Assembly: GCF_030685535.1 (NCBI RefSeq)
Contig: NZ_CP131601.1
Span: forward strand, 992,001 to 1,056,000
DNA length: 64,000 bases
From: Photobacterium leiognathi
GTDB taxonomy: Bacteria; Pseudomonadota; Gammaproteobacteria; Enterobacterales; Vibrionaceae
Reading direction: 5' to 3'
Shown: one piece after another, positions 27,899 through 52,438 of the stretch
Layout: each line of letters starts with the position of its first letter
Position numbering within the stretch: the stretch's first letter is position 1
Notes under the pieces: generated by a model
Told to the model about the DNA's origin: nothing
The model's input: only the letters and a program-made list of their open reading frames with translations
The model's database searches: none
Position numbers and translations under genes: made by a program

Positions 27899-27945
27899 TC
27901 ACACTATGAGATAAAACAAAGGCAGCTTACGAGCCTGTCTCTTGA

Positions 27946-29337
27946 TCACAAGTCATTGTGTTCAAGAGACTTAGCTAGTTCATATCCTTCAAGGATGGTT
28001 TGTAACCTAAACCATCCTTGCCATAATGTCTTTACAGAAGCGCGACCCGTCCGCTTGGTATCTTTCCAACCACCTAACCGTGCAATACTTTTGTAAGCCC
28101 ACGATATATTTGGTGCTTCTTTGGGCAGCTTTTTCTTCTCCAATTTTAACCACATAAGCTTCCACGCTTTACCTTTTAACACCCGTTCACAACAGCTACT
28201 AGATAACTCTTTAGATTCGTTCATAAATCTTAACTGGAGTAAACGAGTAGCAATAAATGCCAAAATAACACTGAGCCTTTCTAAGTTATCTTTACTTTGC
28301 ATTCTCAGTTGTTCAACTTGCGTGCCTTCACTTTTCCAAACCTTGTGAAAATCTTCTATCAGCCAACGACGCTCATAATAACTGACGATGTTAAGTGCTT
28401 CCTCTTTGTTCGTTACAGGCTCTGATGTCAGTAAATGCCATGCGAGCTTGTCGTCACTCTCACCTTGCTCTATACATCCAACATAGTAGAGAGAGATATT
28501 ATCGAACTCTTTTTTATTAGCGGGAGACTTAAGTGTCACGGGAGCATATTTGATGTCTAGATGAGCCGTGCGGGACTTACGACCGCCTTTTTGCGGTATT
28601 TTTAGCTCTTTGCTTCCTGCTGATAACAACTTGGAAGCGTAGTCATAAAGACGATTATCATGCTCCTCGATACAGCGACTTTGCATTGAGCGAACGATAA
28701 ATCGTTGTTGTTGCTCGTGCTTGTAAGTGAGGTACTCGAATAAATCGGCTTCTCTATCACATACAGAAATAACCTCTGACATTTTCTCGCCTAGTCGCTC
28801 TGCAACATGGCGAGATGCTTGTTCCCATTTATAACTTTCTTTTTCTTTGTATGGTCGAGTTGCATGCTGGTGTCTTTGACCACGTTTTTCAATATCTCGG
28901 GTCCAGCGTTGTTGTTCGATTAAACCAACTACAGTGTGAGTTTCGGGAGCAAAAAGCAACGTTGAATGAACGAACATTGCTCGGTGTCGATTACCTTGAT
29001 TGGAATGCCCGAGTGTATCTTGTATGCTGTGATGTGAGTAACTTAGAGAAGTGGTATCTTCCAATGCAAGCAGTGTTTGTTGTTCAAAAGCTTCTTGTGC
29101 TGTGACATAGAATCCAGCTTCTGCAATATCTTCTGCTTTGATTTGGTCATTACGAATAAAGCGATAAGCCCCTTCCATATCGGCTGGGGAGATGATGAGT
29201 TTTGAGATAGGGATACCAGGTTGTTCAGCCAGAGAGGTAGCTAGAGCAACGAGTCTTTGAGTGCGTCTTGGGTCATTAAGATCGGCTTGACCGAATTGTT
29301 TTTGAGCCCAAAGAGTTGGTTCTATATAGGTCATCAT
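27946..29337 (-). CDS. IS4-family (Tn5/IS50-like) transposase, intact
   Basis: 463 residues from the ATG at 29337, chosen for AAGGA five bases upstream; an in-frame ATG lies five codons earlier at 29352. It resembles Tn5 transposase throughout: LNDPRRTQRLVALA, MEGAYRFIRND and LALEDTTSLSY (first catalytic Asp); VISVCDREADLFEYL (second Asp); the YREK-type block YERRWLIEDFHKVWKSEGTQ (catalytic Glu); and WAYKSIARLGGWKDTKRTGR. It cuts and pastes the element through hairpin DNA intermediates. No inhibitor-type start is evident, but an internal start cannot be excluded. Confidence 0.95.
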   Translation of the reverse strand: MMTYIEPTLWAQKQFGQADLNDPRRTQRLVALATSLAEQPGIPISKLIISPADMEGAYRFIRNDQIKAEDIAEAGFYVTAQEAFEQQTLLALEDTTSLSYSHHSIQDTLGHSNQGNRHRAMFVHSTLLFAPETHTVVGLIEQQRWTRDIEKRGQRHQHATRPYKEKESYKWEQASRHVAERLGEKMSEVISVCDREADLFEYLTYKHEQQQRFIVRSMQSRCIEEHDNRLYDYASKLLSAGSKELKIPQKGGRKSRTAHLDIKYAPVTLKSPANKKEFDNISLYYVGCIEQGESDDKLAWHLLTSEPVTNKEEALNIVSYYERRWLIEDFHKVWKSEGTQVEQLRMQSKDNLERLSVILAFIATRLLQLRFMNESKELSSSCCERVLKGKAWKLMWLKLEKKKLPKEAPNISWAYKSIARLGGWKDTKRTGRASVKTLWQGWFRLQTILEGYELAKSLEHNDL

Positions 29338-29390
29338 AATCATCCTTATCATTGCTTAGATGATCAGATCATGAAACATAAAATTAGTTC

Positions 29391-29422
29391 AAAAAAATCC
29401 CCAAGCATTGGCTTAGGGATTT
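29391..29422 (-). terminator. IS-borne terminator inside the outside end (copy 1)
   Basis: On the minus strand, stem AAATCCCTAAGC/GCTTGGGGATTT (one mismatch) with loop CAAT is followed by a T-run of seven. It lies between the IS outer end and the transposase start. It would stop transcription entering from the flank and could replace the broken terminator of the HIT gene. The same structure is in copy 2 (32165-32196) and copy 3 (52352-52383). Confidence 0.8.
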
Positions 29423-29477
29423 GTGTATAAGAGACAGGCTTACGAGCTGCCTTTTTGTTTATCTATGCTTTTAGTTA

Positions 29478-29909
29478 TTAACTGATAGCGCTAAAGCCTT
29501 CAATTTGACTTAGTTCTGCACGTAACTCTTCTGCTAATGCCGCTTGTAATTCATCACTACGTTGGGTGCCATCAGTGTTACCCCAAATTGGACCAGGCCA
29601 TGCGATATCATTACTAAAGCGTGCAATGTGGTGTAAATGCAGCTGTGGGACTAAATTACCTAATGCACCAACATTAATTTTTTCGGCTTGGTAATCATTT
29701 TCTAGCAAAGTTGCAACTGCACTGGATTCGCGCATTAATTGAAATTGATCTTGTTCTGGTAGGTGGTGGATCTCACGCAGTTCGTCAACACGAGGAACGA
29801 GGATAATCCACGGACCTAAAGCTTCTTTTGATAGTAAAACACGAGAAAGAGGAAAGTCACCAAGCACTGTAGTATCTGATTCTAGACGAGGATGAAGAGT
29901 GAAATGCAT
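29478..29909 (-). CDS. HIT domain protein
   Basis: 143 residues from the ATG at 29909, preceded by AAGGA; the upstream extension lacks family similarity. The HIT signature appears as PQLHLHHIARFSND (about 87-100), followed by WPGPIWGN. The HIT superfamily comprises nucleotide hydrolases and transferases using a His triad; the exact substrate is unknown. It lies alone between two IS copies and transcribes toward IS copy 1, which has replaced its terminator. Confidence 0.85.
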   Translation of the reverse strand: MHFTLHPRLESDTTVLGDFPLSRVLLSKEALGPWIILVPRVDELREIHHLPEQDQFQLMRESSAVATLLENDYQAEKINVGALGNLVPQLHLHHIARFSNDIAWPGPIWGNTDGTQRSDELQAALAEELRAELSQIEGFSAIS

Positions 29910-30051
29910 GTAATTATTCCTTAATGGTACATTATGGCTCACAAGCCAGAGCAATAGTTATCATAGTATGCCTAATTCCAGCTTATTGGTATTATCCTTA
30001 ACGTATTCTCTAACATTTTGTTAATTACACGAATTTATTGTGAGGCTATGT

Positions 30052-30657
30052 ATGGCAAGCGAATATCAGTTTGTACTCGATTATTGGTTTGGCGAACTCG
30101 ATGGTGAAGTGACAAAAGAAAATAAACACTCACTTTGGTTTCTAGGCGGCGATGAGGTTGATGCTTATATTAAAACTCACTTTCAATCGTGGGTAAGTAA
30201 AGCAGGTAAAGGTGAATTGAATCATTGGTGTGAAACAGCGAAAGGGCGTTTAGCATTAATCATCTTATTAGATCAATTTAGCCGTAATATTTACCGAGGC
30301 TTAAGTGCCGCGTTTCGTTACGATTCATTAGCTTTAGCACTATGTAAACGTGGCTTAGCGTTAAATCAAGATATGGAATTAACGGCAATTGAGCGTGTGT
30401 TCTTCTATTTACCATTAGAGCACGCTGAAGATTTAGAAGATCAAGAAGAGAGTGTGTTCCGTTTTAAACAATTAACAGAATGTACTTCAGCTGAAAATAG
30501 TGAGCTTTTCGACGGCTTTTATAACTATGCCAAAAGCCATTTTGAGGTGATCAAACAGTTTGGTCGTTTTCCTTACCGCAATGCAGTACAAGGACGCTTA
30601 TCAACTCAAGGCGAACTTGCTTGGCTCAACGACGGTGGTCAGCGATTCGGGCAATAA
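30052..30657 (+). CDS. DUF924 family protein
   Basis: 201 residues. Family-typical blocks are FVLDYWFGELD, LWFLGGDEVDAYIKTHF, LALIILLDQFSRNIYRG, ERVFFYLPLEHAEDLEDQE and FGRFPYRNAVQGR. It is an all-helical, TPR-like cytoplasmic protein of unknown biochemical role. I chose the ATG at 30052, which has TGAGG seven bases upstream; an in-frame GTG lies at 30040. It reads toward IS copy 2. Confidence 0.85.
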   Translation: MASEYQFVLDYWFGELDGEVTKENKHSLWFLGGDEVDAYIKTHFQSWVSKAGKGELNHWCETAKGRLALIILLDQFSRNIYRGLSAAFRYDSLALALCKRGLALNQDMELTAIERVFFYLPLEHAEDLEDQEESVFRFKQLTECTSAENSELFDGFYNYAKSHFEVIKQFGRFPYRNAVQGRLSTQGELAWLNDGGQRFGQ

Positions 30658-30707
30658 CTTTAGTTGTGTTACTTATTCGTCAGATATAAAAAAGCCTTCC
30701 AGATGGA

Positions 30708-32211
30708 CTGTCTCTTGATCACAAGTCATTGTGTTCAAGAGACTTAGCTAGTTCATATCCTTCAAGGATGGTTTGTAACCTAAACCATCCTTGCCATAAT
30801 GTCTTTACAGAAGCGCGACCCGTCCGCTTGGTATCTTTCCAACCACCTAACCGTGCAATACTTTTGTAAGCCCACGATATATTTGGTGCTTCTTTGGGCA
30901 GCTTTTTCTTCTCCAATTTTAACCACATAAGCTTCCACGCTTTACCTTTTAACACCCGTTCACAACAGCTACTAGATAACTCTTTAGATTCGTTCATAAA
31001 TCTTAACTGGAGTAAACGAGTAGCAATAAATGCCAAAATAACACTGAGCCTTTCTAAGTTATCTTTACTTTGCATTCTCAGTTGTTCAACTTGCGTGCCT
31101 TCACTTTTCCAAACCTTGTGAAAATCTTCTATCAGCCAACGACGCTCATAATAACTGACGATGTTAAGTGCTTCCTCTTTGTTCGTTACAGGCTCTGATG
31201 TCAGTAAATGCCATGCGAGCTTGTCGTCACTCTCACCTTGCTCTATACATCCAACATAGTAGAGAGAGATATTATCGAACTCTTTTTTATTAGCGGGAGA
31301 CTTAAGTGTCACGGGAGCATATTTGATGTCTAGATGAGCCGTGCGGGACTTACGACCGCCTTTTTTGCGGTATTTTTAGCTCTTTGCTTCCTGCTGATAA
31401 CAACTTGGAAGCGTAGTCATAAAGACGATTATCATGCTCCTCGATACAGCGACTTTGCATTGAGCGAACGATAAATCGTTGTTGTTGCTCGTGCTTGTAA
31501 GTGAGGTACTCGAATAAATCGGCTTCTCTATCACATACAGAAATAACCTCTGACATTTTCTCGCCTAGTCGCTCTGCAACATGGCGAGATGCTTGTTCCC
31601 ATTTATAACTTTCTTTTTCTTTGTATGGTCGAGTTGCATGCTGGTGTCTTTGACCACGTTTTTCAATATCTCGGGTCCAGCGTTGTTGTTCGATTAAACC
31701 AACTACAGTGTGAGTTTCGGGAGCAAAAAGCAACGTTGAATGAACGAACATTGCTCGGTGTCGATTACCTTGATTGGAATGCCCGAGTGTATCTTGTATG
31801 CTGTGATGTGAGTAACTTAGAGAAGTGGTATCTTCCAATGCAAGCAGTGTTTGTTGTTCAAAAGCTTCTTGTGCTGTGACATAGAATCCAGCTTCTGCAA
31901 TATCTTCTGCTTTGATTTGGTCATTACGAATAAAGCGATAAGCCCCTTCCATATCGGCTGGGGAGATGATGAGTTTTGAGATAGGGATACCAGGTTGTTC
32001 AGCCAGAGAGGTAGCTAGAGCAACGAGTCTTTGAGTGCGTCTTGGGTCATTAAGATCGGCTTGACCGAATTGTTTTTGAGCCCAAAGAGTTGGTTCTATA
32101 TAGGTCATCATAATCATCCTTATCATTGCTTAGATGATCAGATCATGAAACATAAAATTAGTTCAAAAAAATCCCCAAGCATTGGCTTAGGGATTTGTGT
32201 ATAAGAGACAG
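30708..32211 (-). mobile_element. IS50-like insertion sequence, copy 2 (frameshifted)
   Basis: 1504 bp, with ends identical to copy 1 and in the same orientation. By eye the only difference from copy 1 is one extra T in a homopolymer at 31361-31366 (six T instead of five). Flanked by a 10-bp duplication TCCAGATGGA. Near-identity to copy 1 implies recent movement or gene conversion. Confidence 0.95.
30719..32111 (-). pseudogene. IS50-like transposase, single-base frameshift
   Basis: The same transposase as copy 1, split by the extra T at 31361-31366. The N-terminal 250 or so residues end abnormally in KELKIPQKRRS. The C-terminal part, containing the YERRWLIEDFH block, is in another frame. The two DDE Asp residues and the catalytic Glu are thus separated. 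The homopolymer could be a sequencing error or a slippage site. Confidence 0.88.
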
Positions 32212-32250
32212 TCCAGATGGAAGGCTTTTTAATGTAAAGAGGAATGTGAA

Positions 32251-33981
32251 TTACATACGCTCTAGTGTTTCGATACCAAGCAGATCTAGACCTTGCTTGA
32301 TAGTCTTCGCTGTTAGCATTGCAAGCTTCAAGCGGCTTTGCTTGGTTGCTTCGTCAGCGTTAAGAATTGGGCATGCTTCGTAGAAGCTAGAGAACATACC
32401 AGCAAGTTCGAATAGGTAAGTACACATTAGGTGTGGCTGACCTTCACGCGCTACAGATTGAACAGCTTCTTCGAATTGAAGCAGTTTAGACAGTAGTGCT
32501 TGCTCTTTCTCGTCAGTGATAACGATAGGTTGAGTAAGATCTGCTAGTTCAACGTTCGCACGTTTGAAGATAGATGCTACACGAGTGTATGCGTACTGCA
32601 TGTATGGTGCAGTGTTACCTTCGAATGCCAACATGTTGTCCCAATCGAAGATGTAGTCTGTCGTACGGTGCTTAGAAAGATCAGAGTACTTAACTGCAGC
32701 CATAGCAACAGTTTGTGCAATGTTTGCTTTTTCTTCAGCACTTAGTTCAGGGTTCTTCTCTTCGATTAGCTTGTTAGCACGCTCTTCTGCTTCATCAAGT
32801 AGATCTGCTAGACGAACTGTACCACAAGCACGCGTCTTAAATGGACGACCGTCTTTGCCTAGCATCATACCGAATGCGTGGTGCTCTAGAGATACACTCT
32901 CTGGCACGTAACCCGCTTTACGTACGATTTCCCAAGCCATCATTAGGTGTTGGTGCTGACGTGAGTCGATGAAGTAAAGCACGCGATCCGCATGTAGTTG
33001 CTCGTAACGGTACTTAGCACAAGCGATGTCGGTAGTTGTGTATAGGTAACCGCCGTCACGCTTCTGGATGATCACACCCATAGGCTCGCCGTCTTTGTTT
33101 TTGTACTCGTCTAGGTAAACAACCGTTGCACCGTCGCTTTCTACTGCTAGACCTTTTTCTTTAAGATCTGCAACAACGCCAGGTAGCATGTCGTTGTACA
33201 TAGATTCGCCCATTACGTTGTCATCAGTTAGCGACACGTTTAGACGATCGTAGTTACGTTGGTTCTGCTTTAGTGTGATCTCAACAAGTTGCTTCCACTT
33301 CTCTAGGCAGTACTCGTCACCGCTTTGTAGGCGAACAACGAAGTTACGCGCAGTTTCACCGAACTCTGCGTCTTCATCGTAAAGTACTTTAGATTCACGG
33401 TAAAAGCCTTCAAGATCGCTGATGTTCATCGATACGTCAGCGCCTTCTTTCTCTTTACGCTGCATGTTAGCGATAAGCATACCGAACTGAGTACCCCAGT
33501 CACCAAGGTGGTTAGCACGGATAACATTGTGACCTAGGAATTCAAGCGTACGAACAACTGCATCACCGATGATAGTTGAACGTAGGTGACCTACGTGCAT
33601 TTCTTTAGCAACGTTTGGTGCTGAGTAGTCAACAACGATGTTTTGTGCAGTTTCAGTGTTAACAGCTAGACGCTCGTCTTTAAGCGCTTCTTCACCACGC
33701 TCTGCTAACCATGCTTTGTTTAAGAAAATGTTGATGAAGCCTGGGCCTGCGATTTCAACTTTCTCTGCAATACCGTCAAGGTCTAAGCAGTCGATAACTT
33801 TTTGTGCGAATTCGCGTGGATTAGTACCTAGCTTCTTTGCTACGCCCATAACACCGTTCGCTTGGTAATCACCAAACTGAGCTTTAGCTGATTGGCGAAC
33901 TGCTGCAGGACTGCCTGCAGGTGCGCCAGCGGCTTCTAGAGCCTGAGATACTTTATCGTTAATAAGTGCTTGAATGTTCAC
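32251..33981 (-). CDS. argS: Arginyl-tRNA synthetase
   Basis: 576 residues, one fewer than E. coli ArgRS. Class I enzyme: the HIGH-type motif is in [20 protein letters not shown] (about 122-141). A degenerate KMSKS region, [17 protein letters not shown], lies at about 373-389. The anticodon-binding DALR domain ends with [13 protein letters not shown]. Charges tRNA-Arg. It ends 20 bases from the interrupted terminator, so IS copy 2's own terminator may end its message. Confidence 0.98.
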
Positions 33982-34399
33982 ACGCTGATCCTTACATCAT
34001 TTGTAAAGCCAATTATTAATAAGAGGCAAAAATGCCTACGTATCGCAAGATCACCGTCAAAAATAATCACGAAATAAAACAAGTTGATCACAAAAGGTAA
34101 TCAAGTAATTAACGTGAGTATTTTTGACGGGGTCGCGAATATCTAAATATGCACCGAAGTCTTGAATACGCAGCAGGTATTGTCCTAATAATACCCACAC
34201 ATAGAGGTACTTTGGCAACTGGAAAAACCTATTGTTTACGTTTTTTTTTAAACTTTTTTTGTTATGGGTAAATAATGTGTAACGCGTTATTGTATTGGGA
34301 ATGGAGTGCGTTAAATTCCTGTTTCAATAAATCATTAAAAATGGATAATTATTCACTTCACCTAATTATAGTTTCAGTCGTCAATAATGGGATTAATTC
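33982..34399. other. Divergent argS / yecM intergenic region
   Basis: 418 bases without a gene. It is AT-rich and includes a T-run followed by AAACTTTTTTT near 34240-34260. Promoters for both genes must lie here. I see no hairpin terminator, tRNA or known operator. Confidence 0.4.
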
Positions 34400-34984
34400 A
34401 TGAACACGTTAGAACAACATCATCTTCATCCAACGCAAATGCTTGCGCAATTACCAGACTTCATGAAAGCCATTACCGCATTAATCGATGATTTAGGTAT
34501 TTCGCTAAAAGGCTTTCAAGCCGATCACATTGCTTTGCGTGTTAACGATCAAACGTTGGCAGAAGCATTACATCAAGCATGGCTAAGTTATGGTCAAGAA
34601 TGGTCGAATAATATGATCAATGGACGCCCAATTGTGATTATTGGTTTTGAGCAACCATTACAAGCTGGCGATTGGTCATTTGAAGCCTTAGAACTGCCTT
34701 ACCCAAGTGATAAGGCTTACCCGAAGCAAGGGTGGGAGCATATTGAGTTTGTTGTGCCATCAACCGCACGAACAACCGATGAATTAAAACAAGATTTGCA
34801 AAAGCAATTACCGACCTTGGATTGGGATGGTTTAGCAGCGAAAGGCATTAAGGTAAAAGCAAGTTCACCAGCAGGTGATAATGAACGCTTACCAAACCCA
34901 ACTTTTGCTTTTAAACGTGATGGTGTGTGTATCAAATTACATGGGCACTCGTTAAAAGCGGTACTGGAAAGTGAACAAGCTTAA
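34400..34984 (+). CDS. yecM: YecM family protein (glyoxalase/VOC-like fold)
   Basis: 194 residues. Matches E. coli YecM in LPDFMKAITALIDDLGISL, ADHIALRVND, ELPYPSDKAYPKQGWEHIEF and HAPS-type FAFKRDGVCIKLHGHSL. His and Glu residues in ADHIALR and WEHIEFVV could bind metal, as in the vicinal-oxygen-chelate fold. Biochemical function is unknown. In E. coli yecM is also near argS. Confidence 0.9.
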   Translation: MNTLEQHHLHPTQMLAQLPDFMKAITALIDDLGISLKGFQADHIALRVNDQTLAEALHQAWLSYGQEWSNNMINGRPIVIIGFEQPLQAGDWSFEALELPYPSDKAYPKQGWEHIEFVVPSTARTTDELKQDLQKQLPTLDWDGLAAKGIKVKASSPAGDNERLPNPTFAFKRDGVCIKLHGHSLKAVLESEQA

Positions 34985-35006
34985 CGTCGAATAAAGTTGA
35001 GATAAT

Positions 35007-35056
35007 AAAAAGCGCAGCTTACGACTTTTTTTGAGCGGTAATGACTGCGCTTTTTT
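35007..35056. terminator. Long-loop terminator (yecM / purU)
   Basis: Stem AAAAAGCGCAG/CTGCGCTTTTT with a long 27-nt loop and a T-run lies between convergent yecM and purU. The loop begins CTTACGAC and contains a T-run, as if a shorter hairpin had been enlarged. Confidence 0.7.
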
Positions 35057-35073
35057 AATTGTGTATTTAGTTA

Positions 35074-35907
35074 TTAAAGAATAACGGTGCGGTTGCCGTG
35101 AACAAACACGCGATCGTCTACCACTAATCCTAATGCTTTACTGAGCACTGATTTTTCAACATCACGACCTGATTTTGCCATCTCTGCGGCGCTGAAGCTG
35201 TGATCCACGGGGATCACGTTTTGGGTAATGATTGGCCCTTCATCAAGATCATTGGTTACAAAGTGTGCTGTTGCACCAATGATTTTCACACCACGTTCAA
35301 AAGCTTGCTGATAAGGTTTGGCACCAATAAATGCAGGTAAGAAACTGTGGTGAATATTAATGATTTTATTTGGGAATTGAGCAACAAAATTTGGCGTTAA
35401 GATACGCATGTATTTTGCTAGCACCACATAGTTAGGTTGGTATTGTTGTACCGCTTCTAATAGCTTTTGTTCGTGCTCTTCACGGCTCAAACCTTCATGG
35501 CACACATGATGGAATGGAATATCAAATTTTTCTGTTAGGCCTTGTAGCGTGTTGTAGTTACCCACAACTGCTGCAATTTCAATATCTAGCGAGCCATCAA
35601 ATGCTTTAACTAGAATGTCACCTAAACAGTGAGCCTCTTTGGTTACCATGATCACGACTTTTTTTCGATCAGAGCTAATTAAGCGACGCTTGCTGCCTTG
35701 TGGCAATGCATGATCTAAATCGGCAAGGAAGGTGGTGTCATTAAAATAGCCTTCCAGCTCGGTACGCATGAAAAATTGATCATGTGTATTATCAACATAT
35801 TCTTTATTGTTGATGATGTTCAGTTGGTGTTTGTGACAAATATTGGTGATTTTCGCGATAAGCCCCATATCATCTGGGCATTCCGTGAGAAGTGTTTTCT
35901 TTTCCAT
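35074..35907 (-). CDS. purU: Formyltetrahydrofolate deformylase
   Basis: 277 residues. An N-terminal ACT domain (LLTECPDDMGLIAKITNICH) precedes a formyltransferase-like catalytic domain. Catalytic residues are in INIHHSFLPAFIGAKPY (Asn-His) and GATAHFVTNDLDEGPIITQ (His, Asp). Hydrolyses 10-formyl-THF to THF and formate, feeding PurT and balancing one-carbon pools. It is alone in its transcription unit. Confidence 0.96.
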   Translation of the reverse strand: MEKKTLLTECPDDMGLIAKITNICHKHQLNIINNKEYVDNTHDQFFMRTELEGYFNDTTFLADLDHALPQGSKRRLISSDRKKVVIMVTKEAHCLGDILVKAFDGSLDIEIAAVVGNYNTLQGLTEKFDIPFHHVCHEGLSREEHEQKLLEAVQQYQPNYVVLAKYMRILTPNFVAQFPNKIINIHHSFLPAFIGAKPYQQAFERGVKIIGATAHFVTNDLDEGPIITQNVIPVDHSFSAAEMAKSGRDVEKSVLSKALGLVVDDRVFVHGNRTVIL

Positions 35908-36143
35908 GTCGATTCCTGACTACGATTCACGCCTGTCTATATACTGCGTGTTACAAAGATCTTAATTAACTATTACCTAGATTTAACCTTATGGTCAAAG
36001 CATTTATGTCTTTGCTTCTCTGATTAATGAGAAATGAAGGGTGATAATTGCTGTTCTGTGAAAGGAGAGTGCTGGTCGGTTGAGGAGATAATTGGCATAA
36101 TGACAATATAGATACTGTATATATGACCAATAGTGCGAAGTAG

Positions 36144-38801: not shown

Positions 38802-38885
38802 TCGTATCAAAAGTGAGAGTGGTAGCTATGTCTACTACTCTCGTTATAGATGAATCTTGGGTTTATTGGATGATGAGAGGGGATT

Positions 38886-39179: not shown

Positions 39180-39296
39180 AACCATTCCCACTTACTATAT
39201 TCTCCTCGCTATTAACACTTTAATATAAGGTGCCAGCAGACTGTGCATTGATGAGTATTTCTGCTGTTAAATTGAACAGTTATGGTGAGGTTTTAT

Positions 39297-39863: not shown

Positions 39864-39866
39864 TTG

Positions 39867-42608: not shown

Positions 42609-42688
42609 GTATCGCTAGCTAAGTACGTAAAAATACTCGTCAGTTTTTGATGAGATATGTAATTACGTACCATTGCACGATACTATAG

Positions 42689-42716
42689 ATGCCGACGTTA
42701 ATACGTCGGCATTTTT
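42689..42716 (+). terminator. Terminator after fadD
   Basis: Stem ATGCCGACGT/ACGTCGGCAT with loop TAAT followed by a T-run. It separates fadD from rnd. Confidence 0.85.
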
Positions 42717-42772
42717 CTTAATATAATTTACTAAAAGGTTAATGATTTAGCCCTGCACCGAAAAGGTATCAT

Positions 42773-43900: not shown

Positions 43901-43927
43901 GCGAACTTTACTTAAGCTTTAGATAAG

Positions 43928-43953
43928 AAAAAACCCGCTATCTGCGGGTTTTT
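43928..43953. terminator. Bidirectional terminator (rnd / minE)
   Basis: Stem AAAACCCGC/GCGGGTTTT with loop TATCT, with A- and T-runs on both sides. It serves convergent rnd and the min operon. Confidence 0.85.
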
Positions 43954-43958
43954 CCGTA

Positions 43959-44222
43959 TTAACGTTCTTCGTCAGGTAACGTTACGTTAAGTTCGAGTAC
44001 GGATAAATCTTCCTCTTTATGATCAAGGTTCACAGACACTTGATTTGGGTCGATTTGTACGTACTTACTGATCACATCTAAAATATCTTGTTTTAGCTGA
44101 GGTAGGTAGGCTGGAGTCGATTGTCCAGCACTACGACGTTCAGCGACGATAATTTGTAGTCTTTCCTTCGCTACGTTCGCTGTTTTCGTCTTTTTCGGGC
44201 GGAAAAACTCGAGCAGTGCCAT
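43959..44222 (-). CDS. minE: Cell division topological specificity factor MinE
   Basis: 87 residues. The membrane-targeting and MinD-activating N-terminus is [26 protein letters not shown] (split here: [11 protein letters not shown] then [13 protein letters not shown]). The C-terminal dimerisation part carries [18 protein letters not shown]. It stimulates MinD ATPase to drive the pole-to-pole oscillation that confines division to mid-cell. It starts 6 bases after minD. Confidence 0.97.
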
Positions 44223-44228
44223 ATAAAG

Positions 44229-45041
44229 TTAGCCTCCAAATAAGCGTTTTAGGAAGCCTTTCTTCTCTTCCTCTAAGAATTTAAACGGGCGTTCCTCACC
44301 CAATAAGCGTGCTACTGTATCTTCATAAGCAATACCAGCATCAGATTCTTTATCGAAAATAACTGGTTCACCCTTGTTAGACGCGTTTAGCACTGCTTGG
44401 CTTTCAGGAATAACACCTAAAAGAGGAATATGCAAAATTTCTTCAACATCTTGAACGCTTAGCATTTCACCTTGCGTTACACGTGTCGGGTTGTAGCGTG
44501 TTAGTAGCAGGTGTTGTTTAACTGCATCTTTACCTTGTTCTGCACGGCGTGACTTAGAATCTAGAATACCTAGGATACGGTCAGAGTCACGAACAGAAGA
44601 AACTTCAGGGTTGGTTGTTACAATCGCTTCATCTGCGAAGTAAAGTGCCATTAATGCACCTGTTTCAATACCTGCAGGTGAGTCACAGATAATGAATTCA
44701 AAGCCCATTTTATCCAAGTCATTTAAAACGCGCTCAACACCTTCACGAGAAAGTGCATCTTTATCACGAGTCTGAGATGCAGGAAGAACAAACAAGTTGT
44801 CAACGCGCTTATCTTTGATTAGTGCTTGGTTTAAATTTGCTTCGCCGTTAATAACATTAACGAAGTCATAAACGACACGGCGTTCACAACCCATAATGAG
44901 ATCTAGGTTACGCAGACCGATATCAAAATCGATAACTGCAGTTTTTTTACCGCATAATGCTAGGCCAGATGCAATGGCAGCGCTTGAAGTTGTTTTACCA
45001 ACGCCACCTTTACCTGAAGTAACAACGATAATTCGTGCCAT
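44229..45041 (-). CDS. minD: Septum site-determining ATPase MinD
   Basis: 270 residues, the length of E. coli MinD. The deviant Walker A is IVVTSGKGGVGKTTSSAAIA. Switch motifs include DFDIGLRNLD and ICDSPAGIETGALMALYFAD. The C-terminal amphipathic membrane-targeting helix is EEKKGFLKRLFGG. It recruits MinC to the membrane and oscillates with MinE. Second gene of minCDE. Confidence 0.98.
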   Translation of the reverse strand: MARIIVVTSGKGGVGKTTSSAAIASGLALCGKKTAVIDFDIGLRNLDLIMGCERRVVYDFVNVINGEANLNQALIKDKRVDNLFVLPASQTRDKDALSREGVERVLNDLDKMGFEFIICDSPAGIETGALMALYFADEAIVTTNPEVSSVRDSDRILGILDSKSRRAEQGKDAVKQHLLLTRYNPTRVTQGEMLSVQDVEEILHIPLLGVIPESQAVLNASNKGEPVIFDKESDAGIAYEDTVARLLGEERPFKFLEEEKKGFLKRLFGG

Positions 45042-45065
45042 TTACTCAATTCCTTATTAAAACTT

Positions 45066-45773
45066 TTATAAAGCCAGGTGCTCGATGCTGAGTGTATTAT
45101 TAGCAATAGAGATAACTACACCTTTGCCCCAGAACTCTTCCTGAATGTTATCACTTAGCCAGTAGTTTCCTGCAACTGAAATCAATTCAGATTGCAAGTT
45201 CTGACAGAAAATTGTTGCTTCTTGGTCTCCATTGGCACCTGCAATAGCGCGACCACGTAGTGTTCCGTAAATATGAATACAACCATCAGCAAGAATTTCA
45301 GCGCCAGCACTCACATGATTGAGAATGACAAGGTCACGATTTTTTGCGTAAATCTGCTGACCTGAACGAACAGGGGTGCGAATAATAAGTGCTGACTCTC
45401 GGCCTTTTTCTTCTGGCTGAGGAGATGGTTCTACTTCAGTAGATTCTGCTGTTGATTGCTCTTTTACTGAACGAGCGGCATTCATAATAGCAAAACCAGC
45501 AGATTTTGCTTGTTTTTGTAACTCAGGCTCTTTGCAACCACTAATACCCACAGGGATCATACCTGCGTCAACAATTCCGGCTTTTAACTGCTTAAAGTTA
45601 ATATCTTTGCCTGCATTAGATATATCGATAACAACAGGTGCAGAGGCGAAGAAATTAGGTGCGAGTTCAACTTTTTCTTTAAGGTGATCAGTTGCTTTTT
45701 TAATATCACCATCGATTAAATGAAGTGCAGAGAGCGTGAACGAGCTCCCTTTAAGTTCAGCTGTCTTGGTCAT
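45066..45773 (-). CDS. minC: Septum site-determining protein MinC
   Basis: 235 residues. The N-terminal FtsZ-inhibiting domain includes LKGSSFTLSALHL. A variable Glu/Pro-rich linker is followed by the beta-helical C-terminal dimer and MinD-binding domain (RSGQQIYAKNRDLVILNHVS, GAEILADGCIHIYGTLRGRA). Inhibits FtsZ assembly away from mid-cell. Leads minCDE; about 220 bases to the divergent ycgL hold the promoters. Confidence 0.96.
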   Translation of the reverse strand: MTKTAELKGSSFTLSALHLIDGDIKKATDHLKEKVELAPNFFASAPVVIDISNAGKDINFKQLKAGIVDAGMIPVGISGCKEPELQKQAKSAGFAIMNAARSVKEQSTAESTEVEPSPQPEEKGRESALIIRTPVRSGQQIYAKNRDLVILNHVSAGAEILADGCIHIYGTLRGRAIAGANGDQEATIFCQNLQSELISVAGNYWLSDNIQEEFWGKGVVISIANNTLSIEHLAL

Positions 45774-45994
45774 GGGCGTTATTATGGTTAGTGATTAAAT
45801 TAACCACTCTTGTTGATTATCACAAAGGTAGTAGCATGGTATATTCCCTAGCAGTTAGGGGCAAGTTATCCTTGCTTTGACGTTGGAATTTCAGACAAAA
45901 GTCTCATCCTTTATGGTGAAAAATAAACCAATAGGGAATGATGCGTTAAAATTGTGGTCTGAAAGAGGAAGCTTTAACAAATAGGCGAATTGAG

Positions 45995-46273
45995 ATGTTG
46001 TGTGCAATCTATAAAAGCTTAAAAAAAGATAACACTTATTTATATATTAATAAGAAAGATGATTTCTCAGATGTACCTGAAGCATTAATGACTACATTTG
46101 GTAAACCACAATTTGTTATGGTGTTAAAGCTTGATGGTAGAAAGTTAGCATTGGCCGATGTTGAAAAAGTGAAAGAGGCATTAAATACGGTTGGATTTTA
46201 TCTTCAAGTTCCACCGCCAGTGACTAACTTATTGGATCAATATAAAGCCGACAAAGCTAGCAGAGTTAATTAA
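45995..46273 (+). CDS. ycgL: YcgL domain protein
   Basis: 92 residues. Typical YcgL sequence: [46 protein letters not shown] and GFYLQVPPP. Function unknown. In E. coli ycgL also lies next to minC, divergently as here. The transglycosylase gene begins 7 bases after its stop, so they likely form one unit. Confidence 0.92.
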
Positions 46274-46280
46274 GGTTATT

Positions 46281-47252
46281 ATGCATAAGCGTTTAATATC
46301 GGCCGTTGTGGCCTTAGGATTAGGGATTTCCTCAACAGCTTTTGCTGCTGATGAAGGATTTAACGCATACATAAATAAATTAAAAGCTGAAGCACGTTCA
46401 AAAGGTATATCTGAACCTATTTTAGATTCTGCTTTTGATGGTATTACTTTTACGCACCGCGCAGTAAAAGCAGACAAGAATCAGCCTGAAAAAAAATTAA
46501 CTTTAGATCAATATATTCCACGTGCTGTGCCTGATTGGAAAGTAAAACAAGCACGTCGTTTATATCATGAGAATAAAGAGACCTTAGATCGCATTGGTAA
46601 AAAATATGGTGTTCAGCCTCGCTTTATTGTTGCGTTGTGGGGTGTTGAAAGTAACTTTGGTAAATTACAAGGTAATTACCATGTTGTGGAAGCATTAACG
46701 ACATTGGCTTATGAAGGTCGTCGTGAAGAGTTATTCCGTAAACAAGTTATGGCGGCATTACAAATTCTTCAAGAAGGTCACATTACTATTGATGAGATGA
46801 GAGGTTCGTGGGCTGGCGCAATGGGTCAGTGTCAATTTATGCCAACCTCTTATTTAACTTTCGCTGTTGATGGAAATAATGACGGTAAAGCGGATATCTG
46901 GAATACAAAAGCAGATGTATTTGCTTCTGCTGCGAATTACCTGAAGAAGTCTGGCTGGAATGATAAATATACTTGGGGACGCCAAGTGCAAATCCCATCA
47001 TCATTATCTGACAGTTTAAAAGGTACTGATGCGGATAAAGGAAAAACGCTAGCACAGTGGCAAGCATTAGGGGTTCGTACCTTATCGGGTGCTAACTTAC
47101 CACAAGAAGACATTGAAGCGTGGTTAGTTCAACCTGATGATAATCATGGTCGTGCGTATCTTGTTTACGGTAATTACCAAACGCTAATGAAATGGAACCG
47201 ATCTCACTATTTTGCATTAGCAGTAAGCCATTTAGCAGATAAGATTTATTGA
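46281..47252 (+). CDS. Lytic murein transglycosylase (MltB-type, SLT_2)
   Basis: 323 residues with a Sec signal peptide (RLISAVVALGLGISSTAFA) and no lipobox, so it is probably periplasmic and soluble. The catalytic Glu is in ALWGVESNFGKLQGNY. Family motifs GSWAGAMGQCQFMPTSYLTF and VDGNNDGKADIWNTKADVFA follow. It cleaves glycan strands to 1,6-anhydromuramyl products. The peptidoglycan-binding PG_1 domain found in some relatives is absent. Confidence 0.9.
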   Translation: MHKRLISAVVALGLGISSTAFAADEGFNAYINKLKAEARSKGISEPILDSAFDGITFTHRAVKADKNQPEKKLTLDQYIPRAVPDWKVKQARRLYHENKETLDRIGKKYGVQPRFIVALWGVESNFGKLQGNYHVVEALTTLAYEGRREELFRKQVMAALQILQEGHITIDEMRGSWAGAMGQCQFMPTSYLTFAVDGNNDGKADIWNTKADVFASAANYLKKSGWNDKYTWGRQVQIPSSLSDSLKGTDADKGKTLAQWQALGVRTLSGANLPQEDIEAWLVQPDDNHGRAYLVYGNYQTLMKWNRSHYFALAVSHLADKIY

Positions 47253-47286
47253 TCTAAGTTAATTTCATTGTCATGTTAAATGTATT

Positions 47287-47316
47287 AAAAGCCAGGCATG
47301 TTTGTCTGGCTTTTTT
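47287..47316 (+). terminator. Terminator after the transglycosylase gene
   Basis: Stem AAAAGCCAG/CTGGCTTTT, extended by a G-T wobble and a C-G pair, with a T-run of six. Confidence 0.8.
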
Positions 47317-47425
47317 ATTGTTGATGTTGGTTTGGGTATTAAAATGGAAAATAAGGGAAAGGTAACTTATACCTTTAGACTATTTATATTTGGGGAGGCG
47401 AGATATAGATGCTTTTAACAAGTAT

Positions 47426-47453
47426 AAAAAAAGCCCAACGAGGTTGGGCTTTT
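47426..47453 (-). terminator. Terminator after hns
   Basis: Stem AAGCCCAAC/GTTGGGCTT with loop GAG and a long A-run on the left gives a T-run on the minus strand, 20 bases past the hns stop. Confidence 0.85.
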
Positions 47454-47472
47454 CAGTAATGCTTTTAGCGAA

Positions 47473-47868
47473 TTAGATTTCGAAATCTTCTAAAGATTTA
47501 CCTTCATCTAGTGCTTTCTTAAGTGCGCTTGGCGTACGACCTTGGCCTGTCCATGTTTTTTCTTCACCGTTTTCGTCGATGAACTTATATTTAGCAGGAC
47601 GTGCAGCACGTTTTGCTTTTGGTGCTTTAGAAAGGCTAGCTAATAATTCTTCTGGGTCGATGCCATCAGCTAATAGCATTTCACGGTATTGAGCTAGTTT
47701 TTCATTACGCTCATTTTCTTTAGCTTGTTCTGCAGCTTCAGCTTCAGCACGTTCTTGAACAACGGTAGTTAATTTCTCAAGTGCTTCTTCTAGTTGCTCT
47801 AGAGTATATTCACGAGAAAGCGCACGAAGACTACGAAGGTTTAAAAGTGCTTTCATTGCATCAGACAT
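47473..47868 (-). CDS. hns: H-NS family nucleoid-structuring protein
   Basis: 131 residues. The N-terminal coiled-coil oligomerisation domain covers about 1-65 ([20 protein letters not shown] and following Glu/Ala-rich helix). The C-terminal DNA-binding domain has [20 protein letters not shown], with the minor-groove hook GQGRTP. It silences AT-rich, often horizontally acquired DNA. The gene is followed by a terminator, and a long AT-rich spacer lies upstream. Confidence 0.95.
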
Positions 47869-48234
47869 TTTTATATTTCCTGTTATTTTTAACTAACTGT
47901 AAATAATAATAGCAGTGTCGAATCATTTATTACAATAGTAATACTTTTATTCTTTATGTCAAAACACTTTAATCGTTATTTCCCTTAATAGTTAATTAAA
48001 ACAACAATCCTATTTATAAATAAAAGAATAGAGTGAAAAAGATAAATTGCTCGTTAAATAGTTACAAAATGAAACAGCTCATGCGCTTTAGTTCATAATA
48101 TTTCATCTTCGTTGCTATAATTGAATAAAATTTATTTATGAAAGCAATGTTATTCATTGTGAGATGTTAAAACTTTTCTGTGATGTTGTTGCAAATGATG
48201 AAACATTACGTAGAATGTTCGCATCCTTATTGTA
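47869..48234. other. AT-rich spacer upstream of hns
   Basis: 366 bases of very AT-rich DNA with phased A/T tracts and no ORF, upstream of hns and of the lysine riboswitch on the other strand. It likely carries the hns promoter, where H-NS autoregulation on curved DNA is plausible, and the promoter of the riboswitch transcript. No specific site can be assigned. Confidence 0.4.
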
Positions 48235-48408
48235 AGGTAGAGGTGCATTATCTAACAGTAATTAGCAAGAGGGTGAAACCGATGAGGGTTAATGAAAGGA
48301 GCTAATGCCGAAGTAAGCGTGACATCGAATCATCTTACTGGGGTTGCATTGAATAAGTGTAACACTGCCATAGTGTATACATCATATTAACTATGGAGCG
48401 CTACTGTG
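48235..48408 (+). ncRNA. Lysine riboswitch (L box) aptamer
   Basis: The conserved L-box landmarks occur in order: GTAGAGGTGC, AACAGTA, AGGGTGAAACCGATGAGGG, GAAAGGAGC, ATGCCGAAG, TTACTGGGGTTGCATTGAA, TAAGTGTAACACTGCCATAG, CTATGGAGCGCTACTGTG. Length of about 174 nt fits the five-helix aptamer. P1 closes by GTAG/CTAC. Downstream, ACAGTAG (48456-48462) can pair with the P1 3' strand CTACTGT (48401-48407), which would give a mutually exclusive switch. Whether it acts on termination or translation is not clear. Confidence 0.93.
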
Positions 48409-48496
48409 ACGAAGGGAGCTTTAAGAGGCTCTTCATATATGGTGATAGCCATCTCCTACAGTAGATCTCCCACCTAATTCGGTTGTCGTTGAGATC

Positions 48497-50095
48497 ATGA
48501 ATTTAGTCGATTATTCCCATTCATTAGTATCAATCATTCCTCCTGTAGTTGCGCTGGTGCTCGCGATACTTTCTCGTCGCGTGTTACTTTCACTTGGCGC
48601 AGGTATATTATTAGGGGCTCTTTATTTAAATGATTTTTCATTTAATCATTCTGCTTCTTATTTAGGAGGAACAATAAAAGGCTTATTCATTTCTGATGGT
48701 GGGGTAAACACCTGGAACATGAGTATTGTATTATTCCTCATTATATTAGGGATGATGACAGCACTGTTAACCTTGTCCGGTGGTACACGTGCGTTTGCAG
48801 AATGGGCACAAACAAAAATCAAAAGTAAACGTGGTGCCAAGTTACTAGCTGCTTTTTTAGGCGTGTTTATTTTTGTTGATGATTACTTTAATAGCTTAGC
48901 GGTCGGTTCTATTTCACGACCAGTAACCGATCGTTTTTATATCTCACGCTCTAAGCTTGCTTATATATTAGATTCAACGGCAGCGCCGATGTGTGTATTG
49001 ATGCCAGCATCAAGCTGGGGTGCTTATATTATTACTTTAATTGGTGGCATTTTAGTTACCCACGGAGTAACTGAGTACACGCCACTAAGTGCATTCTTAA
49101 CGCTAGCGCCAATGAACTTCTATGCGATCTTTGCTTTAGCTATGGTGTTTGTTGTGTCTTGGTTCCAGTGGGATATTGGACCAATGAAAAAGCATGAGAT
49201 GGCCGCCATGCATGGTCGTGGCTTTGATGAGGGCGGTGATGTTGATGAGCAAGCAAAAGATCTCACCGAAGAATTAGAAATAACGGAGAGTGAGAAAGGT
49301 AAAGTCGGCGATTTAGTGTGGCCTATTATTATTCTGATTGCCGCTACTTTCTTCTTTATGATTTTCACAGGCTATCAAGCACTTGCAGCAGACGGTAAAT
49401 CTTTTGCTATTCTTGGCGCATTTGAAAATACTGATGTGGGTAAATCACTTTGTTTAGGTGGTTTATTTGGTCTTGTTGCTGCGATTATTCCAGTGTTCCG
49501 TCAGCGTATTGTGTTTAAAGAAATTGCTCGAACATTATGGATTGGTGCTAAATCCATGTTCGGAGCGATTTTAATTTTATTATTTGCTTGGGCGATCGGT
49601 AGCGTTATTGGTGATATGAATACAGGTCGTTATTTATCGACCTTAGTTCAAGGCAATATTAGCCCAATGTTATTACCTATGATCCTATTTATCTTATCGG
49701 GTGCAATGGCATTCTCGACAGGAACATCATGGGGTACGTTTGGTATCATGTTACCGATTGCAGGGGATTTAGCTGGCGCTACAGATATTGCGTTAATGCT
49801 ACCAATGTTAGCAGGCGTATTAGCAGGCTCCGTATTTGGTGATCACTGTTCGCCGATTTCAGATACCACCATTTTGTCGTCAACAGGGGCACGTTGTCAC
49901 CACATTGATCACGTAGCAACGCAATTGCCATATGCGATGTCGGTTGCTTTTGTCTCTATGATTGGCTATTTGGTATTGGGGATGACCGATTCATTACCTG
50001 TTGCGTTTATTGCAGCGATTACTACATTCATTATGGTATGTGTGTTCTTTGCGTGGTTGTCTCGTCGAACCTATCAACCAATAGTGAAAAGCTGA
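48497..50095 (+). CDS. lysW: NhaC-family transporter, predicted lysine transporter LysW
   Basis: 532 residues with about a dozen membrane helices. NhaC-type features include FVDDYFNSLAVGSISRPVTD, LDSTAAPMCVLMPASSWGAY and FGDHCSPISDTTILSSTGA. A cytoplasmic charged loop occurs at about 236-270. By sequence alone it would be called a Na+/H+ antiporter. The lysine riboswitch 88 bases upstream instead supports the LysW group, proposed from comparative genomics as lysine importers. Function as a lysine carrier is an inference from regulation. Confidence 0.85.
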   Translation: MNLVDYSHSLVSIIPPVVALVLAILSRRVLLSLGAGILLGALYLNDFSFNHSASYLGGTIKGLFISDGGVNTWNMSIVLFLIILGMMTALLTLSGGTRAFAEWAQTKIKSKRGAKLLAAFLGVFIFVDDYFNSLAVGSISRPVTDRFYISRSKLAYILDSTAAPMCVLMPASSWGAYIITLIGGILVTHGVTEYTPLSAFLTLAPMNFYAIFALAMVFVVSWFQWDIGPMKKHEMAAMHGRGFDEGGDVDEQAKDLTEELEITESEKGKVGDLVWPIIILIAATFFFMIFTGYQALAADGKSFAILGAFENTDVGKSLCLGGLFGLVAAIIPVFRQRIVFKEIARTLWIGAKSMFGAILILLFAWAIGSVIGDMNTGRYLSTLVQGNISPMLLPMILFILSGAMAFSTGTSWGTFGIMLPIAGDLAGATDIALMLPMLAGVLAGSVFGDHCSPISDTTILSSTGARCHHIDHVATQLPYAMSVAFVSMIGYLVLGMTDSLPVAFIAAITTFIMVCVFFAWLSRRTYQPIVKS

Positions 50096-50114
50096 TTTTT
50101 AATACGATGTAGTG

Positions 50115-50143
50115 AAAGCCCATACAATGTTATGGGCTTTTTT
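50115..50143 (+). terminator. Terminator after the lysW-type gene
   Basis: Stem AAAGCCCATA/TATGGGCTTT with loop CAATGT and a T-run. Confidence 0.8.
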
Positions 50144-50246
50144 GTAACTAATGTGTAGTTGTTAAGTCTATCACTTTTCATTATGAGTGAATTTCTGTAG
50201 CATCGGCGCAGTTTTTTTAAAGCAATCGTATTACTAGGGAATTCTC

Positions 50247-50825
50247 ATGGCCCAGATGTATTTCTATTACTCTGCAATGAATGCAGGGAAATCGACCACA
50301 TTATTGCAATCTTCGTTTAATTACCGTGAAAGAGGCATGACGCCGCTTATTTTCACCGCTGCTATCGATAACCGTTATGGTGTGGGTAAAGTGACTTCTC
50401 GTATTGGTTTAGAAGAAGAAGCTGAGCTATTTAATTTAGAAGATGATTTATTCGAGCGAGTAAAAGCATTATCGAATAAAGGTAAAATTGACTGTGTATT
50501 AATTGATGAGTGCCAGTTCTTATCTAAAGCGCAGGTTTATCAATTAACGGAAGTGGTCGATAAACTCGATATTCCAGTTTTATGTTACGGCTTACGTACA
50601 GACTTCTTAGGGGAGCTTTTTGAAGGTAGTCGTTACTTATTATCGTGGGCTGATAAGTTAGTTGAACTAAAAACAATTTGTCACTGTGGTCGCAAGGCAA
50701 ACATGGTGATCCGTCAAGATGAAACCGGTCGTGCTATTGCTGATGGTGATCAAGTTGAAATTGGTGGTAACGATCGTTATGTATCTGTATGCCGATTACA
50801 TTATAAAGAAGCATTAGGTCGTTAA
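50247..50825 (+). CDS. tdk: Thymidine kinase
   Basis: 192 residues, type II thymidine kinase. P-loop [14 protein letters not shown], Walker B-like [13 protein letters not shown], and lasso-domain Zn ligands in [10 protein letters not shown] and a late Cys/His pair ([11 protein letters not shown]). Phosphorylates thymidine in pyrimidine salvage. An hns-tdk neighbourhood is also seen in E. coli. Its 3' terminator is disrupted by IS copy 3. Confidence 0.96.
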
Positions 50826-50910
50826 TTATTTAATGATGAATAGGGATAGTCTTCTTTATTTAATCCAGTAATACGTAATTATTGCGAAACAAAAAGCCAG
50901 CTTATTTAGC

Positions 50911-52398
50911 CTGTCTCTTGATCACAAGTCATTGTGTTCAAGAGACTTAGCTAGTTCATATCCTTCAAGGATGGTTTGTAACCTAAACCATCCTTGCCAT
51001 AATGTCTTTACAGAAGCGCGACCCGTCCGCTTGGTATCTTTCCAACCACCTAACCGTGCAATACTTTTGTAAGCCCACGATATATTTGGTGCTTCTTTGG
51101 GCAGCTTTTTCTTCTCCAATTTTAACCACATAAGCTTCCACGCTTTACCTTTTAACACCCGTTCACAACAGCTACTAGATAACTCTTTAGATTCGTTCAT
51201 AAATCTTAACTGGAGTAAACGAGTAGCAATAAATGCCAAAATAACACTGAGCCTTTCTAAGTTATCTTTACTTTGCATTCTCAGTTGTTCAACTTGCGTG
51301 CCTTCACTTTTCCAAACCTTGTGAAAATCTTCTATCAGCCAACGACGCTCATAATAACTGACGATGTTAAGTGCTTCCTCTTTGTTCGTTACAGGCTCTG
51401 ATGTCAGTAAATGCCATGCGAGCTTGTCGTCACTCTCACCTTGCTCTATACATCCAACATAGTAGAGAGAGATATTATCGAACTCTTTTTTATTAGCGGG
51501 AGACTTAAGTGTCACGGGAGCATATTTGATGTCTAGATGAGCCGTGCGAGACTTACGACCGCCTTTTTGCGGTATTTTTAGCTCTTTGCTTCATGCTGAT
51601 AACAACTTGGAAGCGTAGTCATAAAGACGATTATCATGCTCCTCGATACAGCGACTTTGCATTGAGCGAACGATAAATCGTTGTTGTTGCTCGTGCTTGT
51701 AAGTGAGGTACTCGAATAAATCGGCTTCTCTATCACATACAGAAATAACCTCTGACATTTTCTCGCCTAGTCGCTCTGCAACATGGCGAGATGCTTGTTC
51801 CCATTTATAACTTTCTTTTTCTTTGTATGGTCGAGTTGCTGGTGTCTTTGACCACGTTTTTCAATATCTCGGGTCCAGCGTTGTTGTTCGATTAAACCAA
51901 CTACAGTGTGAGTTTCGGGAGCAAAAAGCAATGTTGAATGAACGAACATTGCTCGGTGTCGATTACCTTGATTGGAATGCCCGAGTGTATCTTGTATGCT
52001 GTGATGTGAGTAACTTAGAGAAGTGGTATCTTCCAATGCAAGCAGTGTTTGTTGCTCTAAAGCTTCTTGTGCTGTGACATAGAATCCAGCTTCTGCAATA
52101 TCTTCTGCTTTGATTTGGTCATTACGAATAAAGCGATAAGCCCCTTCCATATCGGCTGGGGAGATGATGAGTTTTGAGATAGGGATACCAGAGAGAGGTA
52201 GCTAGAGCAACGAGTCTTTGAGTGCGTCTTAGGTCATTAAGATCGGCTTGACCGAATTGTTTTTGAGCCCAAAGCGTTGGTTCTATATAGGTCATCATAA
52301 TCATCCTTATCATTGCTTAGATGATCAGATCATGAAACATAAAATTAGTTCAAAAAAATCCCCAAGCATTGGCTTAGGGATTTGTGTATAAGAGACAG
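50911..52398 (-). mobile_element. IS50-like insertion sequence, copy 3 (degenerate)
   Basis: 1488 bp, same ends and orientation as copies 1 and 2, and flanked by an 11-bp duplication. The 15-bp deficit from copy 1 is explained by a 4-bp and an 11-bp deletion. Several scattered substitutions mark it as an older insertion. The intact duplication shows it has not recombined with the other copies. Confidence 0.95.
50922..52298 (-). pseudogene. IS50-like transposase, multiply inactivated
   Basis: Compared with copy 1 there are three lesions. An 11-bp deletion near 52190 frameshifts the N-terminus. A 4-bp deletion near 51838 shifts the frame again. A GGA-to-TGA change (51591-51593 on the minus strand) creates a stop in the LLSAGSKEL region. 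The C-terminal 197 codons with the YERRWLIEDFH block remain open. No functional transposase is expected, although its ends could still be mobilised by copy 1. Confidence 0.92.
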
Positions 52399-52438
52399 GC
52401 TTATTTAGCTGGCTTTTTCATAGTAACTGACTCTTGAA

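Follow-up and report, generated by a model that had tools for sequence, protein, structure and literature searches.

An IS50-like insertion sequence of Photobacterium leiognathi apparently targets gene-end terminators through mirrored stem sequences

What does a transposase recognise when every copy of its element in a stretch of chromosome sits at the centre of a transcription terminator? The question is raised by 64,000 nucleotides of the Photobacterium leiognathi genome (assembly GCF_030685535.1, contig NZ_CP131601.1, positions 992,001 to 1,056,000; hereafter the window, whose first letter is position 1), in which three copies of a Tn5-like insertion sequence (IS) are found. Excision of each IS together with one target duplicate restores a dyad-centred hairpin of A-tract, stem and T-tract, as a preliminary description of the window had observed; the duplications are perfect, measure 10, 10 and 11 bp, and in all three cases equal the loop plus 6 bp. 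That description had proposed a Tn5/IS50-like element inserting symmetrically into terminators, which is borne out, and had suggested that the transposase reads structure (cruciform or stem-loop DNA). We find instead that insertion apparently occurs almost only in gene-end terminator hairpins, through mirrored sequence in their stems, and we consider it quite probable that a sequence-specific transposase reads inverted half-sites on duplex DNA, with an elastic spacing, and that the target sets the duplication length.

The genome containing the window (own genome) holds 31 full or near-full copies and two small fragments (of 34 matches, three stem from fragments or from a copy's second piece). 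Relatives were added from 52 genomes of the same genus, from 329 genomes of the family (33 of which gave matches of 1e-60 or stronger), and from lists of copies in 30 genomes, named genomes that were scanned, and extra stretches. After 17 matches without recognisable ends or with short flanks had been dropped, 151 unique junction pairs were counted (31 own-genome, 120 from relatives; single insertions carry L numbers), 116 of them with an exact duplication; the 35 others include six own-genome copies, with mismatched flanks (L008, L020) or altered duplicates (L023, L027, L029, L030). Grouped by transposase identity to the window protein and counted as sites with exact duplication, they form groups A (94-100%; 27 sites, 25 in the own genome), B (84-90%, ISVa18-like, Vibrio; 37 rows, two from the tandem locus L181), C (72-83%; 10), D (65-69%; 7), E (61%; 8), F (61-64%; 5), G (48 and 55%; 2), H (52-55%; 11), I (50%; 4) and J (39-40% by tblastn; 4), plus one Pseudoalteromonas copy. 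Our main set of 71 sites is A, B and C minus the tandem pair L181 (two rows) and L002 (orthologue of L033); these sites are partly non-independent, the 72 that include L002 falling into 63 flank clusters.

Aligned at the cut (^), the 142 arms of the 71 sites show the consensus AAAGSCW^SC in a fixed register: A at -7 in 135, A at -6 in 142, A at -5 in 135, G at -4 in 136, S at -3 in 141, C at -2 in 141, W at -1 in 125 and C at +2 in 120. The preliminary description had seen no extended sequence common to the three window targets, but in each of them AAAG(G/C)C(A/T) precedes the cut and the inverse of this sequence follows it. C at -2 is found in 123 of 124 arms of groups A and B, and in both arms of 24 of the 25 exact own-genome copies, the exception, L002, having apparently lost one base. 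As background we collected 121 terminator-like sites in 464 kb of the own genome and 100 in 400 kb of a Vibrio genome; a single shuffle of the same sequence yields 33 and 21 such sites, and about a quarter of the background may be chance. There, C at -2 occurs in 100 of 242 (41%) and 79 of 200 arms (40%), and GSCW is present in both arms at 7 of 121 and 7 of 100 sites. The contrast between nearly all insertions and roughly 40% of the background argues that terminators with a particular stem sequence are chosen. C at +2 is likewise enriched, with 38 of 50 arms (group A, own genome) and 66 of 70 (group B) against 49 of 100 in the free GSCW matches listed at spacing 8-12.

The spacing between half-sites is also selected at insertion. 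Uninterrupted AAAGSCW-N4-20-WGSCTTT sites number 114 in the own genome, 52 of them N8-12, and the free-site statistics refer to the 50 matches listed in each class. Spacings of the free N4-20 matches listed range from 5 to 20, with 19 of 50 at 8-11 and 27 of 50 at 12 or more, whereas 25 of 25 exact own-genome duplications measure 8-11 bp (p=2.7e-8 against the 19 of 50); spacings of 8-10 account for 24 of 25 occupied sites but only 24 of 50 free N8-12 matches listed (p=2.4e-5). If the ruler started from the base or the loop of an extruded hairpin, stem length should hardly matter in this way, whereas it should matter to a dimer bridging two sites on one duplex.

These results bear on the earlier proposal that a hairpin or cruciform is recognised and each strand cut three pairs below the loop, making the duplication equal to loop plus 6. 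Beyond the three window copies, this length fits 35 of the 71 sites, and the dyad offset is 0 in 70 of them (half a base in L026). The remaining 36 sites contradict it as a rule, and we rejected it: duplication length is uncorrelated with loop length (Pearson r=0.08, p=0.53), and the stem pairs between cut and loop number 1 (2 arms), 2 (55), 3 (71) or 4 (14 of the 142). All eleven 8-bp duplications have a 4-nt loop and 2 bp per side, while 4 bp per side are found in five of eight 11-bp and both 12-bp duplications. Folding of the restored sites thus upholds the centring but not the relation of length to loop; the variable duplication does appear to be dictated by the target, with the arms and not the loop as its fixed point. 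Its range is 8-12 bp in groups A to C, reaching 12 in groups B and H and 14 in group E. The odd 9 bp of L002 looks like a later one-base loss, because its orthologue L033 in the same-genus genome G022 occupies that terminator too and is flanked there by a perfect duplication of 10 bp. Off-centre or non-hairpin copies, for which the preliminary description had said one should look, are rare: L026, one of 71, is off by half a base, and L006 lies within an open reading frame (ORF). The arm sequence preference, the narrow spacing and the insertions that keep both half-sites without a proper hairpin (L006 and L150, below) disfavour any reading of structure alone, and the loop-plus-6 scheme in particular seems to us highly improbable.

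The restored hairpin is present in 24 of the 25 exact own-genome copies (-12.3 to -21.0 kcal/mol), a frequency that chance does not explain given the 121 terminator-like sites in 464 kb. The exception, L006 (-8.7 kcal/mol), lies within a Sel1-repeat ORF at AAAGCCT^GCCAATAGTT^AGCCTTT, where pairing is interrupted, and L150, of group E, lies within an SDR-like ORF (SDR by eye) at ACCG^GCGCAGGAAG^TGGT, where inner pairing is absent; both half-sites are kept in each despite the poor hairpins inside ORFs. L060 and L145 are further insertions with poor pairing. Targets of group F are mixed, three of five folding at -13.7 kcal/mol or better and two not, and L145, a member of this group, has one good half-site only, while groups I and J show no terminator insertions. 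Duplications of 9 bp make up 5 of 5 in group F, 4 of 4 in I and 3 of 4 in J, against 19 of 100 in the terminator-hitting groups (rows not made independent), which fits a Tn5-like default that yields wherever a pair of half-sites is available, although F, I and J contribute few cases. In G031, a different species of the genus, a related element (L037, L051, L060, L145 and L149) goes into mixed targets, some of which offer a single good half-site; its four exact cases have 9-bp duplicates, and it should be of use in comparing specificities.

Could host selection alone have produced this distribution, near-random insertion leaving survivors in harmless intergenic terminators? The genomic context was compiled for 97 insertions of terminator-hitting groups in 86 flank clusters (four poor sites and L181 excluded, L006 kept), where crude ORF calls make the flanking genes convergent in 47 clusters, tandem in 32 (18 and 14 by IS orientation), divergent in one and unclear in six. 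The excess of convergent over divergent flanks would suit such survival; neither the constant register of the two arms, nor the base preferences flanking the cut, nor the selection of spacing among terminators would be expected from it, and we give this account next to no credence. Two homologous loci, L018 and L073, carry different elements (transposases about 72% identical) in terminators whose arms are identical, an indication that one site has been used repeatedly. More generally, homologous flanks in different species (L018/L073; L013/L069/L184) carry differing IS types or duplications, suggesting recurrent insertion.

In the reading that we favour, each protomer of a synaptic dimer would bind one half-site, 5'-AAAGSCW^SC, and the transposon end would be joined at ^. 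The target would have to offer two inverted half-sites with cuts 8-12 bp apart, a range tolerated by the dimer, and their spacing would set the duplication length. Because half-site pairs in these genomes would mostly be bidirectional intrinsic terminators (A-tract, GC stem, T-tract), the IS would land in terminators and be centred on the dyad. Having split its target terminator, it would supply one of its own just inside its end, 5' of the transposase. Transcripts entering the element would be halted there, so that the neighbouring gene would be spared and the transposase silenced.

A hairpin of this kind is carried just inside the right end, 5' of the transposase, and reads inward as AAATCCC-stem-loop-stem-GGGATTTTTTT or a close variant. 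It is present in groups A to H and in two Pseudoalteromonas copies with a recognised right end, with damage in the single copies L065 and L183; comparison of right ends did not find it in groups I and J or in the Photorhabdus copy L096. The right ends of L043, L084, L161 and L165 were misassigned. The stem covaries: the 19 distinct sequences contain 133 inner pairs, of which 132 are standard, and between three and five pair types occur at six of the seven inner positions, the other position being invariant. When whole right arms were re-dealt, the mean was 99 standard pairs and 132 was reached in 0 of 2000 shuffles. Judged from its sequence, the hairpin would terminate transcription, and because AAATCCC, the outer arm, is unlike the target half-site, the element probably presents no target for itself at that position. 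An apparent bias of IS orientation towards the gene whose transcript meets the hairpin (at first 14 against 6) disappeared once further groups were included and each cluster was counted as a single site (18 against 14, p=0.6). On the protein tree, terminator targeting (scored without the F rows, L038, L085 and L154) and the hairpin need three changes each, and because only two contrasts fall on well supported branches the link between the two traits is suggestive only.

Several observations weigh against this reading. In the recount described next the two possible rulers were indistinguishable: the GSCW motif had initially been favoured as sole ruler over the distance from the A/T tract, and was dropped when 137 arms with an AAA run were recounted, motif and tract agreeing in 106, GSCW being absent nearby in 15, and the 16 conflicting arms splitting 8 (GSCW) to 8 (tract). 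Owing to this split we prefer neither ruler to the other and have lowered our confidence. Groups E, F and H have weaker or different half-sites, and one named copy (ISVa18, L241) has GGGA arms. Most genomic half-site pairs are hairpins, sequence and structure being therefore hard to separate, and poor inner pairing occurs in 2 of 60 insertions (group A of the own genome together with group B; L026 is among them solely because of its half-base offset), compared with 8 of 50 free matches listed, a mild hairpin excess. Furthermore, an uninterrupted non-hairpin pair, AAAGCCA-N11-AGCCTTT, stands in the transposase gene of 18 of 18 IS copies among the matches listed on contig C1 of genome G119 (e.g., C1 134613-134637); it is non-palindromic, has a permitted spacing and lacks C at +2. 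As for the carried hairpin, its link to targeting amounts to two to three independent contrasts (sign test p=0.5), and group F has the hairpin yet mixed targets.

Some of this would suit a hairpin-assisted mechanism, in which the stem base is read along with the sequence, extrusion or unwinding of the spacer explains the elastic spacing, and cutting takes place some 4 bp inside the stem. In 129 of the 142 arms the A/T tract is 4 nt away from the cut, as it also is in 8 of the 16 where GSCW disagrees; poor inner pairing is found at 0 of 35 group B sites against 8 of 50 free matches listed of another genome, G000; and a spread of 8-12 bp would be large for a rigid enzyme on B-DNA. However, longer stems that have the same arms and a spacing of 12-20 (27 of 50 free matches listed) should extrude too, and 0 of 25 exact own-genome insertions lie there; poorly paired insertions exist (L006, L150, L060, L145); and inner pairing is confounded with the preference for C at +2. 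We regard hairpin assistance as unlikely, and recognition of half-sites on duplex rather than extruded DNA as the better description.

DDE transposases are usually described with a near-fixed stagger. Here, a single element gives duplications of 8, 9, 10 and 11 bp according to the position of the two arm motifs, opening the geometry of the Tn5 target complex to experimental test, and shifted specificities (groups E, F and H) provide material for mapping the target-reading residues. The target motif further predicts likely future insertion sites. It is possible, although we hold the idea with some doubt, that this Tn5-like lineage consists of terminator-exchange ISs with elastic spacing and target-encoded duplications (8-14 bp), whose carried, covarying terminator replaces the destroyed one and in which targeting and terminator have co-evolved. 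If so, insertion would be nearly silent for host and element, and inserting into terminators while bringing one along suggests a possible low-cost route to high IS copy number.

All three window copies lie on the minus strand, between convergent gene pairs (feoB-feoC and a HIT-domain gene; a DUF924 gene and argS; a thymidine kinase gene and hisIE). Copy 1 (27935..29437, 1503 bp, ends CTGTCTCTTGATCA...TATAAGAGACAG) encodes an intact transposase of 468 amino acids (27946..29352, minus strand), Tn5-like, with D99, D199 and E333 as DDE residues and a YREK motif. Its left half-site AAAGGCA (27918..27924, plus strand) is cut directly 3' and followed by the 10-bp duplication GCTTACGAGC (27925..27934), repeated at 29438..29447 before the right half-site TGCCTTT (29448..29454, minus strand). 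The terminator-like hairpin (29391..29422, minus strand), which reads from the right end in the direction of the transposase, has a 12-bp stem followed by T7; a subterminal inverted repeat at the left end (27937..27970) forms a long stem without a T-run. In copy 2 (30708..32211, 1504 bp) the transposase is broken into ORFs of 197 and 258 amino acids; half-sites AAAGCCT (30691..30697, plus strand) and AGGCTTT (32222..32228, minus strand) enclose the 10-bp duplicates TCCAGATGGA (30698..30707 and 32212..32221). Copy 3 (50911..52398, 1488 bp), with a single ORF of at least 150 amino acids (197), has half-sites AAAGCCA (50893..50899, plus strand) and TGGCTTT (52410..52416, minus strand) and 11-bp duplicates GCTTATTTAGC (50900..50910 and 52399..52409). 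The hairpins of copies 2 (32165..32196) and 3 (52352..52383), both on the minus strand, are identical in sequence to that of copy 1.

Some junctions elsewhere are irregular. L008 (G000:C3:67310-68812) and L009 (52813-54315) have about 22 bases of left flank beside the IS in common and differ beyond; L008 and L020 each have two mismatched half-terminators, perhaps the outcome of recombination or conversion among copies of the IS. In L023, L176 and L181 the left duplicate is separated from the IS left end by an additional C or GC, and because many copies have GC at this junction, donor flank may have been carried along. At L181 (G119:C1:1472286-1476200) two tandem IS copies occupy one terminator, with an 8-9-base duplicate before, between and after them.

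How, finally, does the element relate to known systems? The copy 1 transposase matches Tn5 structures (PDB) across residues 12-463 (E 1.3e-82), and Pfam Tnp_DNA_bind, Dimer_Tnp_Tn5 and DDE_Tnp_1 all exceed their cut-offs. With D99, 99 residues, D199, 133 residues and E333, the sequence YERRWLIEDFHKVWK and a one-ORF transposase, it lies within the limits given for the IS4 family (DDE spacers of 60-110 and 100-150, YREK motif, one-ORF transposase; available text of PMC2266710). Own-genome duplications of 8-11 bp, 10 bp in 12 of 25 exact copies, correspond to about one helix turn, as in that family. Both 20-base ends of copy 1 show the IS50-subgroup consensus CW------Y---CA-A--W-, and its 1503 bp fall within the subgroup's 1350-1550 bp. 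As 13 of 25 exact own-genome duplications measure 10 or 11 bp, where the subgroup is given 8-9 bp (PMC2266710, Table 1), we call it an IS4-family, IS50-like element and not a plain IS50 member. The closest named element found is ISVa18 (IS4 family), with 86% DNA identity across the whole element and the same ends; its copy L241 likewise has an A-tract/stem/T-tract hairpin target, a 9-bp duplication and a similar IS-borne hairpin, and differs in its GGGA arms. Tn5 itself has a loose target preference. In the open-access literature searched, the name ISVa18 was not found, nor did any of the titles and abstract openings listed deal with an IS50-like element in terminators or with a duplication length set by target spacing, and PMC3049150 had no bearing on the subject; subscription journals lay outside the search, which leaves absence unproven. 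The word "terminator" is absent from the main text of PMC2266710.

ISRm22 and other REP-targeting ISs offer an IS4-family precedent for palindromic intergenic targets, which are however REP elements and not terminators (available text of PMC1525189); the A, B and C targets, compared with one another as a possible repeat family, spread over 63 flank clusters for 72 sites and have differing spacers. IS1272 likewise uses inverted-repeat targets, but replaces the stem-loop without duplication, at targets without shared sequence (as far as PMC5678879 was available), a mode that we rejected here given the duplications and shared arms. The IS231 and IS4 subgroups, of the same family, have duplications of 10-12 and 10-13 bp and some elements with conserved target arms, but the variable lengths in the available text of PMC2266710 are not tied to target spacing, and the available text of PMC5678879 and PMC1525189 makes no such connection either. 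IS50/Tn5 shares the transposase match, the DDE and YREK motifs, the end consensus and the size (PMC2266710, Table 1), and differs in its subgroup's duplications of 8-9 bp, compared with 8-11 bp in the own genome and 8-14 bp across the groups described here.

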